A stretch of DNA of 64,000 nt, from NCBI GenBank assembly GCA_019749945.1, contig JAIEPF010000003.1, forward strand, positions 186,001-250,000, read 5' to 3'. Made by a program: the position numbers and the translations under genes. Of this stretch, positions 12,698 to 58,497 are shown in pieces. The notes under the pieces were generated by a model. It made no database searches. It was not told the origin of the DNA and worked only from the letters and a program-made list of their open reading frames with translations. Each line of letters begins with the position of its first letter. The first letter of the stretch is position 1. The DNA is from Burkholderiales bacterium. GTDB taxonomy: Bacteria > Pseudomonadota > Gammaproteobacteria > Burkholderiales > SG8-41.

Positions 12698-12903
12698 GAT
12701 TCATTCCGTGATCAGCAAGACCCTGATATTAAACGAGCAGGGTTTCATGCGGTGCCGGCAAATCGAACAGACGATTGACAAGAGACGCTGCCGCTCTGAC
12801 AATGCGCCAGCAGCGGGGGTTTCGGCAGGCTCCCCGCCCTTTCAAGACGCCATGCGTCCAAGCACTGCCTTCGTGTGCACTCGCAGACCGCGAAGGAGTC
12901 ATC

Positions 12904-45153: not shown

Positions 45154-46308
45154 ATGGCCCGCAAACAAAAAATCGTAGTCGGCATGTCAGGCGGCGTTGA
45201 TTCGTCGGTGGCCGCGCTGCTGCTCAAGCAGCAGGGCCATGAAGTGATCGGCCTGTTCATGAAAAACTGGGAAGACGACGATACCGACGAACACTGCACA
45301 TCACGCCAGGACCTGATTGACGCGGTTGCCGTCGCTGACCGCATCGGCATCGACATCGAGGCGGTCAATTTCAGCGCCGAATACAAGGATCGCGTATTCA
45401 GCGAATTCCTCAGCGAATACCAGGCCGGCCGCACGCCCAATCCGGACGTGCTGTGCAACGCCGAAATCAAGTTCAAGGCCTTCCTCGACCACGCGATGAA
45501 CCTCGGTGCGGACCGCATCGCCACCGGCCACTATGCCCAGGTGCGTGAAGTCGACGGACTGCACCAGCTGCTGAAAGCCGAGGACGGCAGCAAGGACCAG
45601 AGTTATTTCCTCTACCGCTTGAACCAGCAGCAGCTGGCAAAAACCGTGTTCCCGCTGGGCGCCCTCTACAAACGTGAAGTGCGCGACATCGCGCGCCGCG
45701 AAGGCATGCCCAACCATGACAAGAAGGATTCAACGGGCATCTGCTTCATCGGCGAACGCCCGTTCCGCGAGTTCCTCAACCGTTACCTGCCGGCGAATCC
45801 CGGCGACATCGTCACGCCCGAAGGTGTGAAGGTCGGCAAACACATGGGACTGACGTTCTACACGCTGGGACAACGCCAGGGCCTGGGCATCGGCGGCACG
45901 CGCAACGGCGACGGCGATGCCTGGTATGTCGCGCACAAGGACATGGCAAACAACCGCCTGGTGGTGGTGCAGGGTCACGATCACCCGTTGCTGTTCGCCG
46001 ACCAGCTGACCGCCGTCAACCTGAACTGGATCAGCGGCGAGGCGCCGCACACGCAATGGGTGTACAGCGCCAAGACGCGTTACCGGCAGAAAGATGCCGC
46101 CTGTTCGCTGTCGTCAACGACGCCGGAGCAATGCGTGGTGGAATTTGCCGAAAACCAGTGGGCGGTGACGCCCGGCCAGTCGGTGGTGATCTACGAAAGC
46201 CGCGTCTGCATCGGCGGCGGCATCATCCAGTCCGCGCGCCAGGCACAGACCGTGCCGCGTGATATGGGCTGCCCGCCGGATACAGAACCGTTCAACCGCG
46301 AAGAATGA
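45154..46308 (+). CDS. mnmA: tRNA-specific 2-thiouridylase MnmA
   Basis: 384 aa. The pyrophosphatase loop [15 protein letters not shown] is at residues 9-23. The catalytic cysteines are in [12 protein letters not shown] and [12 protein letters not shown]. It thiolates U34 of tRNAs for Lys, Glu and Gln using sulfur relayed from a cysteine desulfurase. It begins 5 nt after the nudJ-like gene. Length is normal. Confidence 0.95.
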
Positions 46309-46374: not shown

Positions 46375-46983
46375 CTACACCGGCGCCGTATCCTTGAACG
46401 AAGGACGCAGCGCAAGCTTGTCAGCCAGCCGCGCCAGATTGGGATGGTTGCGCCGCCACGGCAAATCCGGCAGCCGCAATTCCAGCCAGCCCAGGCAGCA
46501 GCCGAGAGCAATGTCGGCCAGCGAAAAAAAGTCGCCGGTGCACCAGGCTTTCGCCGCCAGATCGTCGGCCATCATCTGCAGGGCACGATCCACCTTGCCC
46601 TGCTGGCGTGCGATCCACTCCGCTGACTGCTGCGCTGGCGGCCGGCGTTTTTCCATCACCAGCGCCACCGCGGCATCGGTGCATCCGTCGGCCAGCGCCT
46701 CCCAGCGCCGCGCCTGGATGCGCGGACGTTTTTCCTCCGGTATCAGCCGGTTGCCCGGACTGGCGCTGTCCAGGTATTCGGCGATCACTCGCGAATCGAA
46801 CAGGGTGCTCTCGTCATCCAGCACCAGCACCGGGATCTTGCCCAGCGGATTGTATCGGGTGACGGTGCTGGTGTCGGTGTTCGGCGCATCAACGACAAAT
46901 TCGCACTCCATGCGTTTCTCGGCGAGAACGACGCGCACCTTGCGGGTGTAGGGACTGGTGGTCGTCCCGATCAGCTTCATCAT
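46375..46983 (-). CDS. Glutathione S-transferase family protein (YibF-like)
   Basis: 202 aa. Thioredoxin-fold N-terminal domain: LIGTTTSPYTRKVRVVLAEK with Ser/Tyr near the start, then NPLGKIPVLVLDDESTLFDS, which includes the cis-Pro and the glutathione gamma-Glu site. The helical C-terminal half contains SLADIALGCCLGW. It has two possible Met starts, at 46983 and 46980. It is divergent from the selenoprotein gene. Confidence 0.85.
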   Translation of the reverse strand: MMKLIGTTTSPYTRKVRVVLAEKRMECEFVVDAPNTDTSTVTRYNPLGKIPVLVLDDESTLFDSRVIAEYLDSASPGNRLIPEEKRPRIQARRWEALADGCTDAAVALVMEKRRPPAQQSAEWIARQQGKVDRALQMMADDLAAKAWCTGDFFSLADIALGCCLGWLELRLPDLPWRRNHPNLARLADKLALRPSFKDTAPV

Positions 46984-47135
46984 ATGGATTTTGCAGGGTA
47001 TCTTGCGGGGTAATGTTGCGGAGTAAAAGTTACGCGGGAAAAAGCGCGCGGATTATAGCACCGCGAACCTTGACGCCCAACGCCACAGACCGTTAGTCTT
47101 GCCGCTCATATCAACCGCCTCGGGAAAGGTCACAT

Positions 47136-47906
47136 ATGGGCGCCAACGAACAGTTCATCCTCTTCACCCAGCCTGGGTGAAGCAGCTGTCTCCGGGCGAA
47201 AGAGTTTCTTTCGCGCAAAAAAATCGATTTCGTCGCCATCGACGTACTGAACGATCCGCAGGGCCGTGAGCGCCTGCTCAAGCTCGGCGTGCGCAACGTG
47301 CCGGTGGTCGCCAAGGGCGAGCAGTTCGTTTTCGGCCAGAACCTCGAGGACGTCGCCGAATTCGTCGGCCTGCAGGGCACCGGCCACAAACCGCTGCCGC
47401 CGGAGGAGTTGATCAAGCGCTGGGTCATGGTGCTGCGCACCGCCCAGCGGCTGATGCGCCAGCTGCCCGACGCCCAACTGACGGAACGCGTGATCCCCAA
47501 CCGCGACCGCTCGATCCGGCTGATGTGCCACCACATCTTCCGCATCGGCGAAGCATTCCTTGAATCCGTGGAAGGCGGCGTCGAATACGCGGTGCAGCTC
47601 GCCAACGTACCTCCCAAAGACGGCACCTTCATGACTGGTGACGAAATCGCGCGTTACGGCGACACCATCATCGCGCGGCTGGAAAACTGGTGGCAGAAGC
47701 TCGAGGACAAATCCTGTCAGCAGAAAATCAAGACCTTCTTCGGCATGCAACCCATCTACATGCTTTATGAGCGTTCGACCTGGCACAGCGCGCAGCACGG
47801 CCGGCAACTCGCCGCGGTTCTGGAGCGGCTGGGCATCACGCCCGACCGGCCGCTGACGCCGGAACAACTGGCGGGGCTGCCGCTGCCTGAAAGACTATGG
47901 GAATAA
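47136..47906 (+). CDS. Selenocysteine-containing glutaredoxin-like protein with a DinB-like C-terminal domain
   Basis: 256 aa if the in-frame TGA at 47178-47180 is read as selenocysteine. Residues 1-75 are a thioredoxin/glutaredoxin fold: FILFTQPG then Sec15-S-S-Cys18, LRAKEFLSRKKIDF, and the cis-Pro block RNVPVVAKGEQF. Sec sits where these proteins have the attacking Cys. A hairpin just after the TGA fits a bacterial SECIS. Residues 85-256 are helical with LMCHHIFRIGEAF and WHSAQHGRQL, resembling the DinB-like four-helix bundle. The frame is perfect on both sides of the TGA, the ribosome site GGAAAGG precedes ATG 47136, and selA, selB and tRNA-Sec are in the same window. Confidence 0.9.
47196..47214 (+). 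promoter_or_regulatory. Predicted bacterial SECIS hairpin
   Basis: GCGAAAG (47196-47202) and CTTTCGC (47208-47214) form a 7-bp stem closing the loop AGTTT, which presents a GU. The loop GU is about 24 nt after the UGA, as in known bacterial SECIS elements that SelB binds. Confidence 0.78.
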
Positions 47907-51600: not shown

Positions 51601-52995
51601 ATGGTGAATCCTGCCGCAGCCGCGCGTCGCGCGTTGCCCTCGGTGGATCGCCTGCTCGGCAGCGCCACGGTCGCGGCACTCATCACCGCGTACGGCCGCA
51701 GCCGCGTAACCGAAATCCTGCGCCATGCGCTCGATGCCGAGCGCGAGCGGCTGGCACAACCCGACGCCGCCTGGAACGAACAGCAGTTCCTGCAGTCCTG
51801 CACCAGCGCACTGGAACAGGGCGCAGCACCTTCGCTGAAACCCGTGTTCAACCTGACCGGCACCGTGCTGCACACCAACCTCGGCCGCGCAGTGATGCCG
51901 CAAAAGGCCGCGGAGGCGGTGATGGCGGCGATGACGCGCCCGGTCAATCTTGAATTTGAACTGTCGACCGGCGGACGCGGCGAACGCGACAGCCATGTCG
52001 AGCGCTGGCTGAAACAACTCACCGGCGGCGAAAAAGCCGTCGCCGTCAACAACAATGCCGCAGCGGTCTACCTTGCGCTGAACACGCTGGCGCTGAAGCG
52101 CGAAGTGCTGGTATCTCGCGGCGAACTGATTGAAATCGGCGGCGCCTTCCGCATCCCCGACATCATGGCGCGCGCCGGCGTCAAACTGGTCGAAGTCGGC
52201 ACCACCAACCGCACCCACCTCAGAGACTTCGCTGAAGCCATCACGCCGCGCACTGCAGCGATCATGAAGGTGCACACCAGCAATTACGTGGTGCAGGGCT
52301 TCACCGCCACGGTGCCCGAACCCGATCTGGCGAAACTCGCGCATGAGCACGACCTGCCGTTCATCGTCGACCTTGGCAGCGGCACCCTGATCGACCTCGA
52401 ACAATACGGCTTGCCGCACGAACCGACGCCGCGGGAAACCCTGGCCCAGGGCGCCGACGTCGTCACCTTCAGCGGTGACAAGCTGCTCGGCGGGCCGCAG
52501 GCCGGACTGCTGGTGGGACGCCGCGATCTGATGGCGCGCATCGCGAAAAACCCGATGAAACGCGCATTGCGCCTCGACAAGCTGACACTGACCGCGCTCG
52601 ATGCCGTATTGCGCCTGTACCTGCATCCGGAGCGCCTGCATGAAGAACTGCCGGCGCTGCAACTGCTGACCCGCAAGGCGGATGACATTGCTGCACAGGC
52701 CGCACGCGTGCTGCCGCCGGTTGCCGCCGCATTGGGCGAAGCCTGGCGCGTCGAAATCACCGCCTGCAAAAGCCAGATCGGCAGCGGCGCGCTGCCGGTG
52801 GATGTCATGCCCAGCAGCGGCCTGGCCATGTCGCCGTCCGGCAAAAAGGGCAATGTCGGCAATCTCGCCACCGCGTTCCGCGCGCTGCCGGTGCCGGTGA
52901 TTGGCTACATCAAGGACGGCGCCTTTGTACTCGACCTGCGCTGCCTGGATCATGAAGACGAATTCGTCGCGCAGCTTGGGAAGCTTAAAATCTAA
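51601..52995 (+). CDS. selA: L-seryl-tRNA(Sec) selenium transferase
   Basis: 464 aa. FNLTGTVLHTNLGRAVMP and the PLP lysine in VVTFSGDKLLGGPQAGLLVG (Lys near 295) are the SelA signatures. It converts seryl-tRNA(Sec) to selenocysteinyl-tRNA with selenophosphate. It is followed by selB after 143 nt holding an inverted repeat. This provides half of the decoding machinery needed by the UGA-containing gene at 47136. selD was not seen in the window. Confidence 0.96.
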   Translation: MVNPAAAARRALPSVDRLLGSATVAALITAYGRSRVTEILRHALDAERERLAQPDAAWNEQQFLQSCTSALEQGAAPSLKPVFNLTGTVLHTNLGRAVMPQKAAEAVMAAMTRPVNLEFELSTGGRGERDSHVERWLKQLTGGEKAVAVNNNAAAVYLALNTLALKREVLVSRGELIEIGGAFRIPDIMARAGVKLVEVGTTNRTHLRDFAEAITPRTAAIMKVHTSNYVVQGFTATVPEPDLAKLAHEHDLPFIVDLGSGTLIDLEQYGLPHEPTPRETLAQGADVVTFSGDKLLGGPQAGLLVGRRDLMARIAKNPMKRALRLDKLTLTALDAVLRLYLHPERLHEELPALQLLTRKADDIAAQAARVLPPVAAALGEAWRVEITACKSQIGSGALPVDVMPSSGLAMSPSGKKGNVGNLATAFRALPVPVIGYIKDGAFVLDLRCLDHEDEFVAQLGKLKI

Positions 52996-53138: not shown

Positions 53139-55148
53139 ATGATCGTCGCTACTGCAGGCCACATCGACCACGGCAAGACCTTGCTGGTCAAAACCCTGAC
53201 CGGCACCGACACCGACCGCCTGCCCGAAGAAAAAGCGCGCGGCATTTCGATCGACCTCGGTTTCGCCTACCTGCCGCTGGATGACGGCGGACTGATCGGC
53301 TTTGTCGATGTGCCCGGCCACGAACGTTTCATCCGCAACATGCTGGCCGGCGTGTCAGGCATCGATTTCGCGCTGCTGATTGTCGCCGCCGACGACGGCG
53401 TGATGCCGCAGACCATCGAACACCTGCAGATCCTCGACCTGCTGCACATCCGCCGCGGCGCCGCGATCATCACCAAGGCCGACCGTGTTGATGCCGCGCG
53501 TATCGCCGAAGTCAGCGAACAGGTGCGCGCGCTGCTGGCGAATACCAATCTGTCCGGCGCCACCATCCATCCGGTGTCCGCGGTCAGCGGCGCCGGCATG
53601 GCCGATTTGAAAGCGCTGCTGCTGCGTGAAGCCGCCGCGAAAAGCCTGCGCAGCGCCGAAGGCCAGCACCTGCGTTACGCCATCGACCGCGCCTTCAGCA
53701 TTGCCGGCAGCGGCACCGTGGTCACCGGCACGGTATTCAACGGCACGGTCAATACCGGGGACAAACTGGTCATTTCGCCCGCCGGCATCGAAGTGCGGGT
53801 GCGCAGCATCCAGATCCACGGCAAAACCGCGGAACGGGCACGTGCCGGCGAACGCTGCGCGCTGAACCTGACCGGGGCCGATGTCGACTCGGTACGCCGC
53901 GGCGACTGGGTCATGGCCGCGGCCATCCACCGCCCGACACGCAAACTCGATGTGCGCCTGAGCGTGCTGCCCGCTGAAACCCGTGCGCTGAAGCACTGGA
54001 CCCCCGTGCACCTGCACCTCGCCACGGCAGATGTCACTGCACGCGTATCGCTGCGCCGCGGTGAAGGACTGGCACCGGGCAGCGGCGGCATTGCGCAACT
54101 GGTGCTCGATGAACCGGTTTCAGCGCTGCATGGCGACCGTTTCATCCTGCGCGACCAGTCCTCAGCCCGCACCATCGGCGGCGGCAGCATCATCGACCCG
54201 CTGCCGCCGGCGGTACGGCGCAGCAAGACGCGTGACGCCACGCTGGCCGCGCTGGAATCCGCCGATCACGTCATGGCATTGGCCGCCCTGGCGGCGAACG
54301 ACAAACATCCGGTCGACCTTGCCCACTTCACGGCGATTTTCAATTTGCTGCCCGATATTGCGTCCGCCGCTTACGCCAAAGCCGGACTGGTACCGCTGGG
54401 CAAGGAACACCGCTTTGCCGTCACGCAACAGCGATTGGCTGCACTGCAGGAAGCCGCGGCAAAACAGGCGCTGGCCTTCCATCAAGCACAACCGCAGGCC
54501 CCCGGCATGGAAATCGAAACCCTGCACGCCGCACTGGCGCCGGAACTCGACGCCGATGCCTTCGGCCATGTGCTGCGCCTGCTCGCCGACCAGCGCCGGA
54601 TCGAAATCCACAGCTCGCTGGTGCGCAAGCCCGGTCACGACAGCACGGCCAACAGCGCCGACGTCAAACTGTGGGAAACCGTGCAGCCGGTGCTGACCGC
54701 AGCCGGATTCAATCCGCCGCCGCTGAAAGAACTCGCGCCACAACTGAAACTGAAGGACGCCATCCTCAAGGATTTCCTCTACCGCCAGATGAAAGCCGGC
54801 AATCTGTACAAGGTCGGCGCCGAGCGCTTTTACCTCAAGTCCACCATGGCCGTGCTGGCCGCGACGGCACAGGCCGTACACGCCAAACAGCCCAACGGCC
54901 TCTTTACCGCCGCACAGTATCGCGACGCCATCGGCATCGGCCGCACACTGGCGATCGAGATCCTCGAAGCACTGGATGGGCTGACCATTACCCAGCGTGT
55001 CGGTGATGCACGCAAGATGCGCAAGGATTTTGTACCCATCCTCGGCGCCGCTGATCCTGCGCCGCCGCCAGCGCCCGGTGCAGCACCGAAGCCTCAGCAA
55101 CAACAAAAACCACAACAACGCCCCCCTTTCCGCAACAAACGGTATTAA
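53139..55148 (+). CDS. selB: Selenocysteine-specific elongation factor SelB
   Basis: 669 aa. The GTPase motifs are GHIDHGKT (residues 7-14), [13 protein letters not shown], and a third motif in IITKADRVD. After the EF-Tu-like domains, the C-terminal winged-helix domains bind SECIS RNA. The last 20 residues are Pro/Gln-rich. SelB brings selenocysteinyl-tRNA to UGA codons marked by SECIS. It lies between selA and the flavoprotein gene. Confidence 0.95.
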
Positions 55149-55162
55149 AAGAGAGCACCCGC

Positions 55163-56071
55163 ATGTCCACCACCGCATTTGACGTCATCGTGATCGGCGA
55201 AGGCATCGCCGGACTCACGGCAGCACACACTCTGGCCAAACTCGGCCTCAGCACCGCCACTTTTGAACAGCAACTCTTTGGCGGCCTGGTCATCAACATC
55301 AATGAACTCGACCCCGCCCCGCCCGGTGGTGAAGCCGGCGGCGCTGCGTTTGCCGCTGAAATGACCCAGGCCAATGCCGATGCCGGCGTCAGCAGCATCC
55401 AGGAACCGGTGACCGCCATCGCCGCCGCTGACGGCGGCTTTAGCGTCACCACGGACGGCGGCAGCTATCGCGCGCGCCAGGTCATCGTCGCAAGCGGCGC
55501 CCATCTGAAATCGCTGGGCGTACCCGGCGAAGCCGAATTCGAAGGCCGCGGCGTATCCAAATGCGCCGACTGCGACGGTCCGATGTTCCAGAACGAAACC
55601 GTGGCCGTGGTCGGCGGCGGCGACTCCGCGCTGCAGGAAGCCCAGGTGCTGACGCATTACTGCGGCAAGGTCTGGCTGATCCATCGCGGCTCGGCGTTCA
55701 GCGCGCAACAGCGCTTCATCGACCGTATCCAGGGCAACGACAAGATCGAAACCCGTTTCGGCACCACGGTGGAGGCCGTCCTCGGCGGCCAGATGGTCGA
55801 GAAGCTGCGCATCAAAAGCAGCGCAGGCAGCGAAGAAATTCCCTGCGCCGGCATCTTTGCCTACATCGGCCTGGAACCCAACGCCAAATTCCTGCCGGCG
55901 AATGTGAAACGCGATGCAAAAGGGTTCATCACCACCAATGACGCGCTGGAAACTTCCGTCAGCGGCCTGTGGGCCGTCGGTGCGGTGCGCAGCGGCTGCG
56001 GTGGCAGCCTGGAAGATGCGATGGCGGATGCCAAACGCGCGGCGGAAGCCGTGGCTGCACGTCTGAAATAA
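55163..56071 (+). CDS. Thioredoxin-reductase-like FAD-dependent oxidoreductase
   Basis: 302 aa. The FAD motif is VIGEGIAGLTAAHTLA, the redox-active pair is SKCADCDGPMF (Cys134 and Cys137), and the NAD(P) motif is VVGGGDSALQEAQ. The last block (GLWAVGAVRSGCGGS) is the FAD end. Length matches thioredoxin reductase, but AVGAVRSG replaces the usual AGD, so it is divergent. It follows selB by 14 nt and so is linked to the selenocysteine genes. It could reduce a selenoprotein, but this is inferred from position. Confidence 0.82.
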   Translation: MSTTAFDVIVIGEGIAGLTAAHTLAKLGLSTATFEQQLFGGLVININELDPAPPGGEAGGAAFAAEMTQANADAGVSSIQEPVTAIAAADGGFSVTTDGGSYRARQVIVASGAHLKSLGVPGEAEFEGRGVSKCADCDGPMFQNETVAVVGGGDSALQEAQVLTHYCGKVWLIHRGSAFSAQQRFIDRIQGNDKIETRFGTTVEAVLGGQMVEKLRIKSSAGSEEIPCAGIFAYIGLEPNAKFLPANVKRDAKGFITTNDALETSVSGLWAVGAVRSGCGGSLEDAMADAKRAAEAVAARLK

Positions 56072-58402: not shown

Positions 58403-58497
58403 GGAAGGGAATCGCTCCCGGTGGGGCGGCCGGACTTCAAACCCGGTAGGGGCCGCGAGCGGTCCTGTGTGGGTTCGACTCCCACTCTCTTCCGCCA
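58403..58497 (+). tRNA. selC: tRNA-Sec(UCA)
   Basis: 95 nt, same length as E. coli selC and closely similar throughout. The acceptor stem is 8 bp (GGAAGGGA with TCTCTTCC), the anticodon TCA is at 58437-58439 in the loop CTTCAAA, the variable arm is long (AGGGGCCGCGAGCGGTCCT region) and the 3' CCA is encoded (58495-58497). It decodes the UGA of the selenoprotein gene at 47136. Confidence 0.96.

Follow-up and report, generated by a model that had tools for sequence, protein, structure and literature searches.

The gene at positions 47136..47906 (+ strand) of the window, i.e., the 64-kb (64,000-nucleotide) stretch of DNA from an uncultured betaproteobacterium that was analysed, raises the question of whether the in-frame TGA codon at 47178..47180 (+) terminates translation or encodes selenocysteine (Sec) in a redox-active motif. 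In the window sequence, the frame that starts with the ATG at 47136 contains no stop codon until 47906 except for this TGA, and the sequence GGAAAGG (47123..47129, +), located 6 nt ahead of the ATG, is the likely ribosome binding site; a first-pass annotation had described the frame, its lone TGA (47178-47180), and the GGAAAGG site, and all were found in the sequence. When the TGA is read as Sec (U), the N-terminus of the product becomes MGANEQFILFTQPGUSSCLRAKEFLSRKK..., and the gene, here called grx-dinB, is predicted to encode a 256-residue selenoprotein whose residue 15 is Sec. The UGA is located in a UxxC motif (PG-U-SSC), as judged from aligned homologues with either TGA or a Cys codon. 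The annotation had expected a gene finder to begin at 47289, and the table-11 list of open reading frames does exactly so, giving only 205 amino acids from a GTG start codon; the redox domain is lost by normal gene calling in the sequence lists that were checked.

Residue 15 in homologous genes

The survey of homologues comprised 109 loci, corresponding to 86 distinct stretches of 225 nt. No locus was dropped for a missing motif; a copy of the window gene (L027), short glutaredoxin matches (L029-L056), and selD matches (L092-L094) were excluded before counting. Residue 15 is encoded by TGA in 72 of the 86 distinct homologues and is Cys (TGC or TGT) in 14, with no third residue at this position; Cys or an aligned UGA was what the first-pass annotation had anticipated here. 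Seven Rhizobium plasmid matches, of 13 matches obtained, were left out of the survey. Loci L141-L175 were added later and stand outside the 86; these additions supplied one more Cys form (L165) and 10 more TGA forms. Protein-level conservation of residues 1-84 extends over the TGA in all 86 homologues, and the codons ahead of it vary synonymously with the residues unchanged. G14, S17, C18, P56, H133, R213, W216, H217, Q220, H221, and R223 are invariant in all 86.

A scan of contigs gave 26 loci, every one with TGA at residue 15, including L001, which is 97% identical to the window gene. Whole-genome searches matched 66 of the 74 genomes searched in the window's family and 36 of the 399 searched in the order; in the family search, the places spanning residue 15 contain one TGA, and eight stop-free places start past residue 89. 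When genomes were drawn evenly from the phylum, 2 of 398 matched, i.e., the window's own genome (G000) and G885. The class-wide search (E 1e-3) matched 79 of 369 genomes; outside G000 and G120, it gave short glutaredoxin matches only, which are uninformative on the fusion. Among the Cys forms are genes carried on plasmids of Caballeronia, Variovorax, Roseomonas, and Rhizobium leguminosarum (33-44% identity), which, where annotated, are named glutaredoxin domain-containing or DinB family proteins.

In the tree, one branch (97/95) holds 50 of 51 Sec rows. The remaining row, L095 from genome G885, is the sole Sec form from outside the order and sits separately on a long branch, so that one and two origins of Sec both fit the tree. 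L011, L012, and L019 come from metagenome bins titled Bordetella parapertussis; their genes group with uncultured betaproteobacteria in the tree, and the labels look doubtful.

That the TGA is a true stop, with the gene running from 47289 and encoding the DinB part only and the upstream region either decayed or a separate 14-residue peptide, is scarcely credible: the ordinary call from the GTG would fit such a truncated gene, whereas it is contradicted by the conservation of residues 1-84 over the TGA, the Cys at residue 15 in 14 homologues, the synonymous variation of the preceding codons, and the Pfam glutaredoxin match in 18 of 18 members scanned.

The hairpin downstream of UGA-15

SelB brings Sec-tRNA to a UGA codon that precedes its hairpin. 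A putative bacterial SECIS hairpin is located at 47196..47214 (+), in which the strands 47196-47203 and 47207-47214 form the stem and GUU (47204-47206) forms the apical loop. This hairpin, GCGAAAGA-GUU-UCUUUCGC, begins 15 nt past the UGA, with a UGA-to-loop spacing of 23 nt, and the computed fold has an 8-bp stem and an energy of -12.3 kcal/mol. The first-pass annotation had placed it correctly, with GU in the loop, whereas its 7-bp stem was replaced by one of 8 bp. In PMC13188914, the bSECIS model allows an apical loop of 3-9 nt and an upper stem of 4-16 bp (Fig 2 of that paper), with a G at loop position 1 or 2, a UGA-loop distance of 16-37 nt, and an energy of <= -7.5 kcal/mol. The window hairpin lies within all of these limits as given there (GUU, 8 bp, G first, 23 nt, and -12.3 kcal/mol), and the SECIS that had been proposed agrees with the rules of the model.

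Among 20,000 synonymous recodings of the window codons, within the loop and spacing limits, a stem of at least 8 bp arose by chance in 0.8% and one of at least 7 bp in 4%. Such a chance figure for the hairpin in one gene is modest; its counterweight is recurrence, as the hairpin is shared by 71 of the 72 distinct TGA-form homologues. The hairpin codons of the 72 TGA forms (A/T-K-E-F-L-S) are AAA in 68 and AAG in 4, GAG in 72, TTT in 72, CTT in 71, and TCG in 72; CTT is otherwise rare and accounts for 7% of the Leu codons in the rest of these genes. For 36 Sec forms with <85% protein identity, the synonymous-codon identities at codons 21-26 are 1.00, 0.89, 1.00, 1.00, 0.94, and 1.00, respectively, versus a gene mean of 0.51, and the top 8-codon window of synonymous conservation in the whole gene begins at codon 21. 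The corresponding values in the 14 Cys forms are 0.36-0.56 versus a gene mean of 0.47. The hairpin codons are thus frozen in TGA forms and not in Cys forms, which indicates that the RNA is selected only where the UGA is present. This restriction of synonymous freezing to UGA forms is the strongest evidence for a SECIS element, as far as the nucleotide sequences can indicate one.

No true covariation was found in the stem among 55 distinct sequences: six of the seven inner pairs are invariant, and the seventh changes only from A-U to G-U. Covariation is no proof of the stem here because the stem is nearly invariant. The set of 55 contains 8 of 10 late loci that were picked by a hairpin-containing pattern, and the fair figures for recurrence are 71/72 and 10/10. 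The codon 3' of the UGA has A as its first base in all 72 Sec forms; where a Cys form has Ser after residue 15 (10 forms), the codon is TCN in all 10.

Four divergent Sec paralogues (L166-L169; 25-30% identity), which stand outside the 86, retain the UxxC motif and the hairpin, with a GUA loop instead of GUU in two of the four; the A after the UGA is not kept in L166-L168. A near-invariant SECIS across such distant paralogues offers a good test of how narrowly SelB reads its hairpin. L095 is without the family hairpin. Its near hairpin (gagactc-AAG-gagtttc) has no G at loop position 1 or 2, and a second hairpin, with the loop GUG, is at the 37-nt limit of spacing; L095 possibly represents a separate gain of Sec.

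Selenocysteine genes and the sel locus

The window contains selA (51601..52995, +; TIGR00474, 577 bits) and selB (53139..55148, +; TIGR00475, 428 bits), both above the curated cut-offs, as well as selC for tRNA-Sec (UCA) (58403..58497, +), which was found by ARAGORN and by Rfam (RF01852, 75.9 bits). selD is absent from the 64-kb window and is located on a different contig of this genome (G000:C33:53021-53947, L092; 420 bits). The first-pass annotation had placed all Sec genes other than SelD in the window and had made a SelD in the genome a test of its proposal; both points are borne out. The selD of G000 itself contains an in-frame TGA (motif GGGUGCK), and its product is likely itself a selenoprotein. 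A search of this genome found no second copy of the window hairpin at <=2 mismatches; therefore, the SECIS of SelD differs, and by eye it is also readable with a GUU loop. A Sec-containing formate dehydrogenase was considered as the reason for the Sec machinery and was rejected, as no TGA is present in the 13 FDH-alpha match rows of the same genome. Elsewhere in the window, an Rfam chrB-b RNA was matched at 12814-12868 (51.2 bits).

SelB scores over the cut-off in 27 of 29 Sec-form genomes versus 3 of 9 Cys-form genomes (Fisher p 7e-4, ignoring kinship), and the two Sec-form genomes without it are 83-84% complete. Since an in-frame TGA alone does not specify the inserted residue, readthrough by a reassigned TGA, near-cognate suppression, or a frameshift could in principle replace Sec insertion; this is very improbable given that the TGA swaps with Cys only, that tRNA-Sec, SelA, SelB, and SelD are present, that the SECIS rules are satisfied, and that SelB accompanies the Sec forms in all but two genomes. 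Readthrough by another route is also countered by homologues that terminate with TGA, e.g., L023, whose own gene ends with a TGA terminator. The product of grx-dinB is almost certainly a selenoprotein, insofar as the compared genes can tell.

The gene order in the family of the window is mnmA, a YibF-type glutathione S-transferase (GST) gene on the reverse strand, grx-dinB, variable TTT-receptor/amidase genes, selA, selB, and a thioredoxin-reductase-like gene. In the window, mnmA (2-thiouridylase) is presumably the gene at 45154-46308, and the divergent GST neighbour (46375..46983, - strand) matches the PRK10357 model, which we take to be YibF, with 187 bits (cut-off 181). The thioredoxin-reductase-like flavoprotein encoded after selB (55163..56071, +), which matches TIGR01292 with 232 bits and is under the cut-off of 343, is a candidate electron donor. 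mnmA is upstream of the sel locus and the thioredoxin-reductase-like gene is 3' of selB in families f1 and f188; the latter gene was not seen after selB in the f195 loci L150, L151, and L153. In 23 of 29 TGA-form genomes, selB is preceded by a Sec copy of the same orientation at a distance of 1408 to 6569 bp. The linkage is absent in the other six, i.e., two without selB over the cut-off, three in which the genes are on different contigs, and G885, a complete genome in which they are far apart. The distance between grx-dinB and selB is ~1.4 kb in five genomes, and in family f195 this gap contains selA alone, beginning ~15 nt past grx-dinB.

Many genomes have extra Sec copies, up to four, distant from the sel genes. 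These unlinked Sec copies and the Cys forms neighbour TTT receptors, MmgE/PrpD, CoA-transferase, SDR, amidase, and similar catabolic genes (loci L121, L122, L123, L131, L134-L139, L160, L161, L057, and L058), and the neighbours point to catabolic clusters with no single pathway.

The selB-linked copy could, for its part, be a selenium-handling protein, acting for example in selenite reduction or in selenide delivery to SelD, rather than an enzyme that only makes use of Sec. Its tight linkage to selA, selB, the GST gene, and the thioredoxin-reductase-like gene speaks for such a role, as does the ~1.4-kb interval before selB in five genomes, which has room for selA alone. The glutathione and thioredoxin systems are named as possible selenium donors in the review PMC13188914, and this is counted for the same role. 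Nevertheless, Cys forms occur in genomes without SelB over the cut-off (six of nine), which makes a general selenium-supply function less likely, although the sel-linked copy could differ, and extra Sec copies are located apart from the sel genes, near TTT receptors, MmgE/PrpD, and CoA-transferase-type genes. We consider selenium handling distinctly unlikely.

Domain architecture and proposed chemistry

The glutaredoxin domain covers residues 8-65 (47157..47330, +; PF00462, E 3e-13, 50.2 bits versus a gathering cut-off of 22.9), and the DinB_2 domain covers residues 101-225 (47436..47810, +; PF12867, 28.9 bits versus a cut-off of 24.8). Among 18 members scanned with Pfam, Glutaredoxin was matched in all 18 (E 0.01) and DinB_2 in 17. 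Some of the residues for glutathione binding in the glutaredoxin domain look atypical by eye when set against classical glutaredoxin motifs. The AlphaFold2 model, calculated from 20 sequences, has a mean pLDDT of 92.6 and a pTM of 0.88. The best Foldseek match is the DinB/YfiT protein DR0053 (6iz2_B, E 2.2e-4), to which VIA-align superposes 144 residues (Z 15.6, rmsd 2.5), and the N-terminal domain superposes on the thioredoxin-like BC3987 over 77 residues (Z 13.1, rmsd 1.7). The Pfam matches, the model, and the fold matches uphold the glutaredoxin-like and DinB-like domains of the first-pass annotation, which had also suggested structure prediction of the DinB part; that part is modelled confidently and matches DinB/YfiT four-helix folds. 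The conserved His "pairs" of the annotation did not hold, and a triad was found instead, H133 (47532-47534), H217 (47784-47786), and H221 (47796-47798; all +), which is invariant in 86 of 86 homologues. According to PMC5815605, the eight Bacillus subtilis members of the superfamily are all bacillithiol transferases that depend on a metal, and H67, H160, and H164 are the only residues they have in common; the H...HxxxH arrangement of grx-dinB fits this BstA triad.

The same four-helix fold is found in YfiT (1rxq_D, Z 13.5), the Mycobacterium tuberculosis mycothiol S-transferase MST (8f5v_A, Z 13.2), and the mycothiol-dependent maleylpyruvate isomerase MDMPI (2nsg, Z 12.9), where Z values below ~13 are not distinctive for helix bundles. 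The bacillithiol transferases BstA-H, MST, and MDMPI, all of the DinB/YfiT S-transferase-like superfamily, share the metal-ligand-type His triad with grx-dinB; they use a free low-molecular-weight thiol, whereas grx-dinB has a UxxC redoxin fused N-terminally. OvsA and EgtB (DinB_2 + FGE-sulfatase), which act in selenium (OvsA) or sulfur chemistry, also contain a DinB-type domain, with Z values over the DinB part of 11.6 and 10.3, below the distinctive level of ~13 for helix bundles; unlike grx-dinB, they have neither a glutaredoxin domain nor Sec. The N-terminal domain also has a fold match to cGrx1 (7c10_A, Z 11.6). The Clostridium-type selenoprotein glutaredoxin (PF00462; PMC13188914, Table 1) likewise combines a glutaredoxin fold, UxxC, and a SECIS that lies within the reading frame, whereas grx-dinB differs from it in the DinB fusion (~170 residues), the betaproteobacterial sel locus, and the motif PGUSSC. 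Small Sec glutaredoxin-like domains are also known from the UXX-star families 1-3 and the HUGP/GUXX-star fusion (NF041114, NF041211, NF047338, NF041212, and NF045501). These five models score 24-43 bits, all below their curated cut-offs (Uxx_star is best, 43.3 versus 66), and none of them describes a DinB part, which grx-dinB has.

DinB is not listed in the portion covered of the 2026 table in PMC13188914, which comprises 119 prokaryotic selenoprotein families, and the term "DinB" was not found in the passages covered of PMC9312934 and PMC12013277. Full-text literature searches returned no selenoprotein or glutaredoxin-DinB fusion of this kind, which does not establish its absence from print. 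Sec glutaredoxins and UXX-star proteins are known already, and the DinB fusion is absent from the selenoprotein lists examined. The family adds a conserved, multi-copy selenoprotein family to betaproteobacteria and joins selenium to the DinB thiol-transferase superfamily, and its natural Cys/Sec pairs within one order allow the long-standing question of the benefit of Sec over Cys to be tested directly in a single enzyme.

The best explanation overall for the UGA/Cys exchange, the frozen hairpin, the SelA/SelB/SelC/SelD set, the two domains, the His triad, and the sel linkage, all of which are read from sequence, is a UxxC glutaredoxin + DinB/YfiT His-triad protein whose UGA-15 is predicted to be read by SelB and a SECIS; we give this explanation a probability of roughly 0.93. 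SelB and Sec-tRNA would decode UGA-15 with the aid of the hairpin 15 nt downstream to give the 256-residue protein. The selenolate of Sec15 would then attack a disulfide, a thiol adduct, or another electrophile, Cys18 would resolve the intermediate, and the centre would be reduced again by glutathione or by the thioredoxin-reductase-like product of the gene 3' of selB. The DinB site may hold a divalent metal and bind or activate a partner thiol or substrate in thiol-transfer-type chemistry. We propose only tentatively, and at somewhat less than even odds, that metal-dependent thiol chemistry is coupled to the Sec centre. A bolder proposal, which we regard as improbable, is that, in this betaproteobacterial family, the Sec trait is kept mainly for the grx-dinB class, with the sel operon built around it and the fused selenol replacing the free low-molecular-weight thiol of other DinB enzymes, which would make grx-dinB a new selenol-dependent, metal-assisted transferase/reductase.

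The DinB part could instead be a structural or dimerisation module, in which case the protein would simply be a Sec glutaredoxin or NrdH-like redoxin. This is rather unlikely, although the divergent Sec branch L166-L169 fits it, with the UxxC motif kept and the HxxxH pair lost: by eye, the first His is kept in four of four, H217 is lost in four of four, and H221 is lost in three of four, and DinB_2 is slightly under the cut-off or unlisted. In the 86 members of the main family, on the other hand, H133, H217, H221, W216, Q220, and R223 are invariant, and H...HxxxH matches the BstA triad as given in PMC5815605; both argue against a purely structural role. With HxxxH lost and UxxC retained in L166-L169, the Sec centre can occur apart from the metal site, which is not needed by every Sec member; this counts against the proposed metal mechanism.
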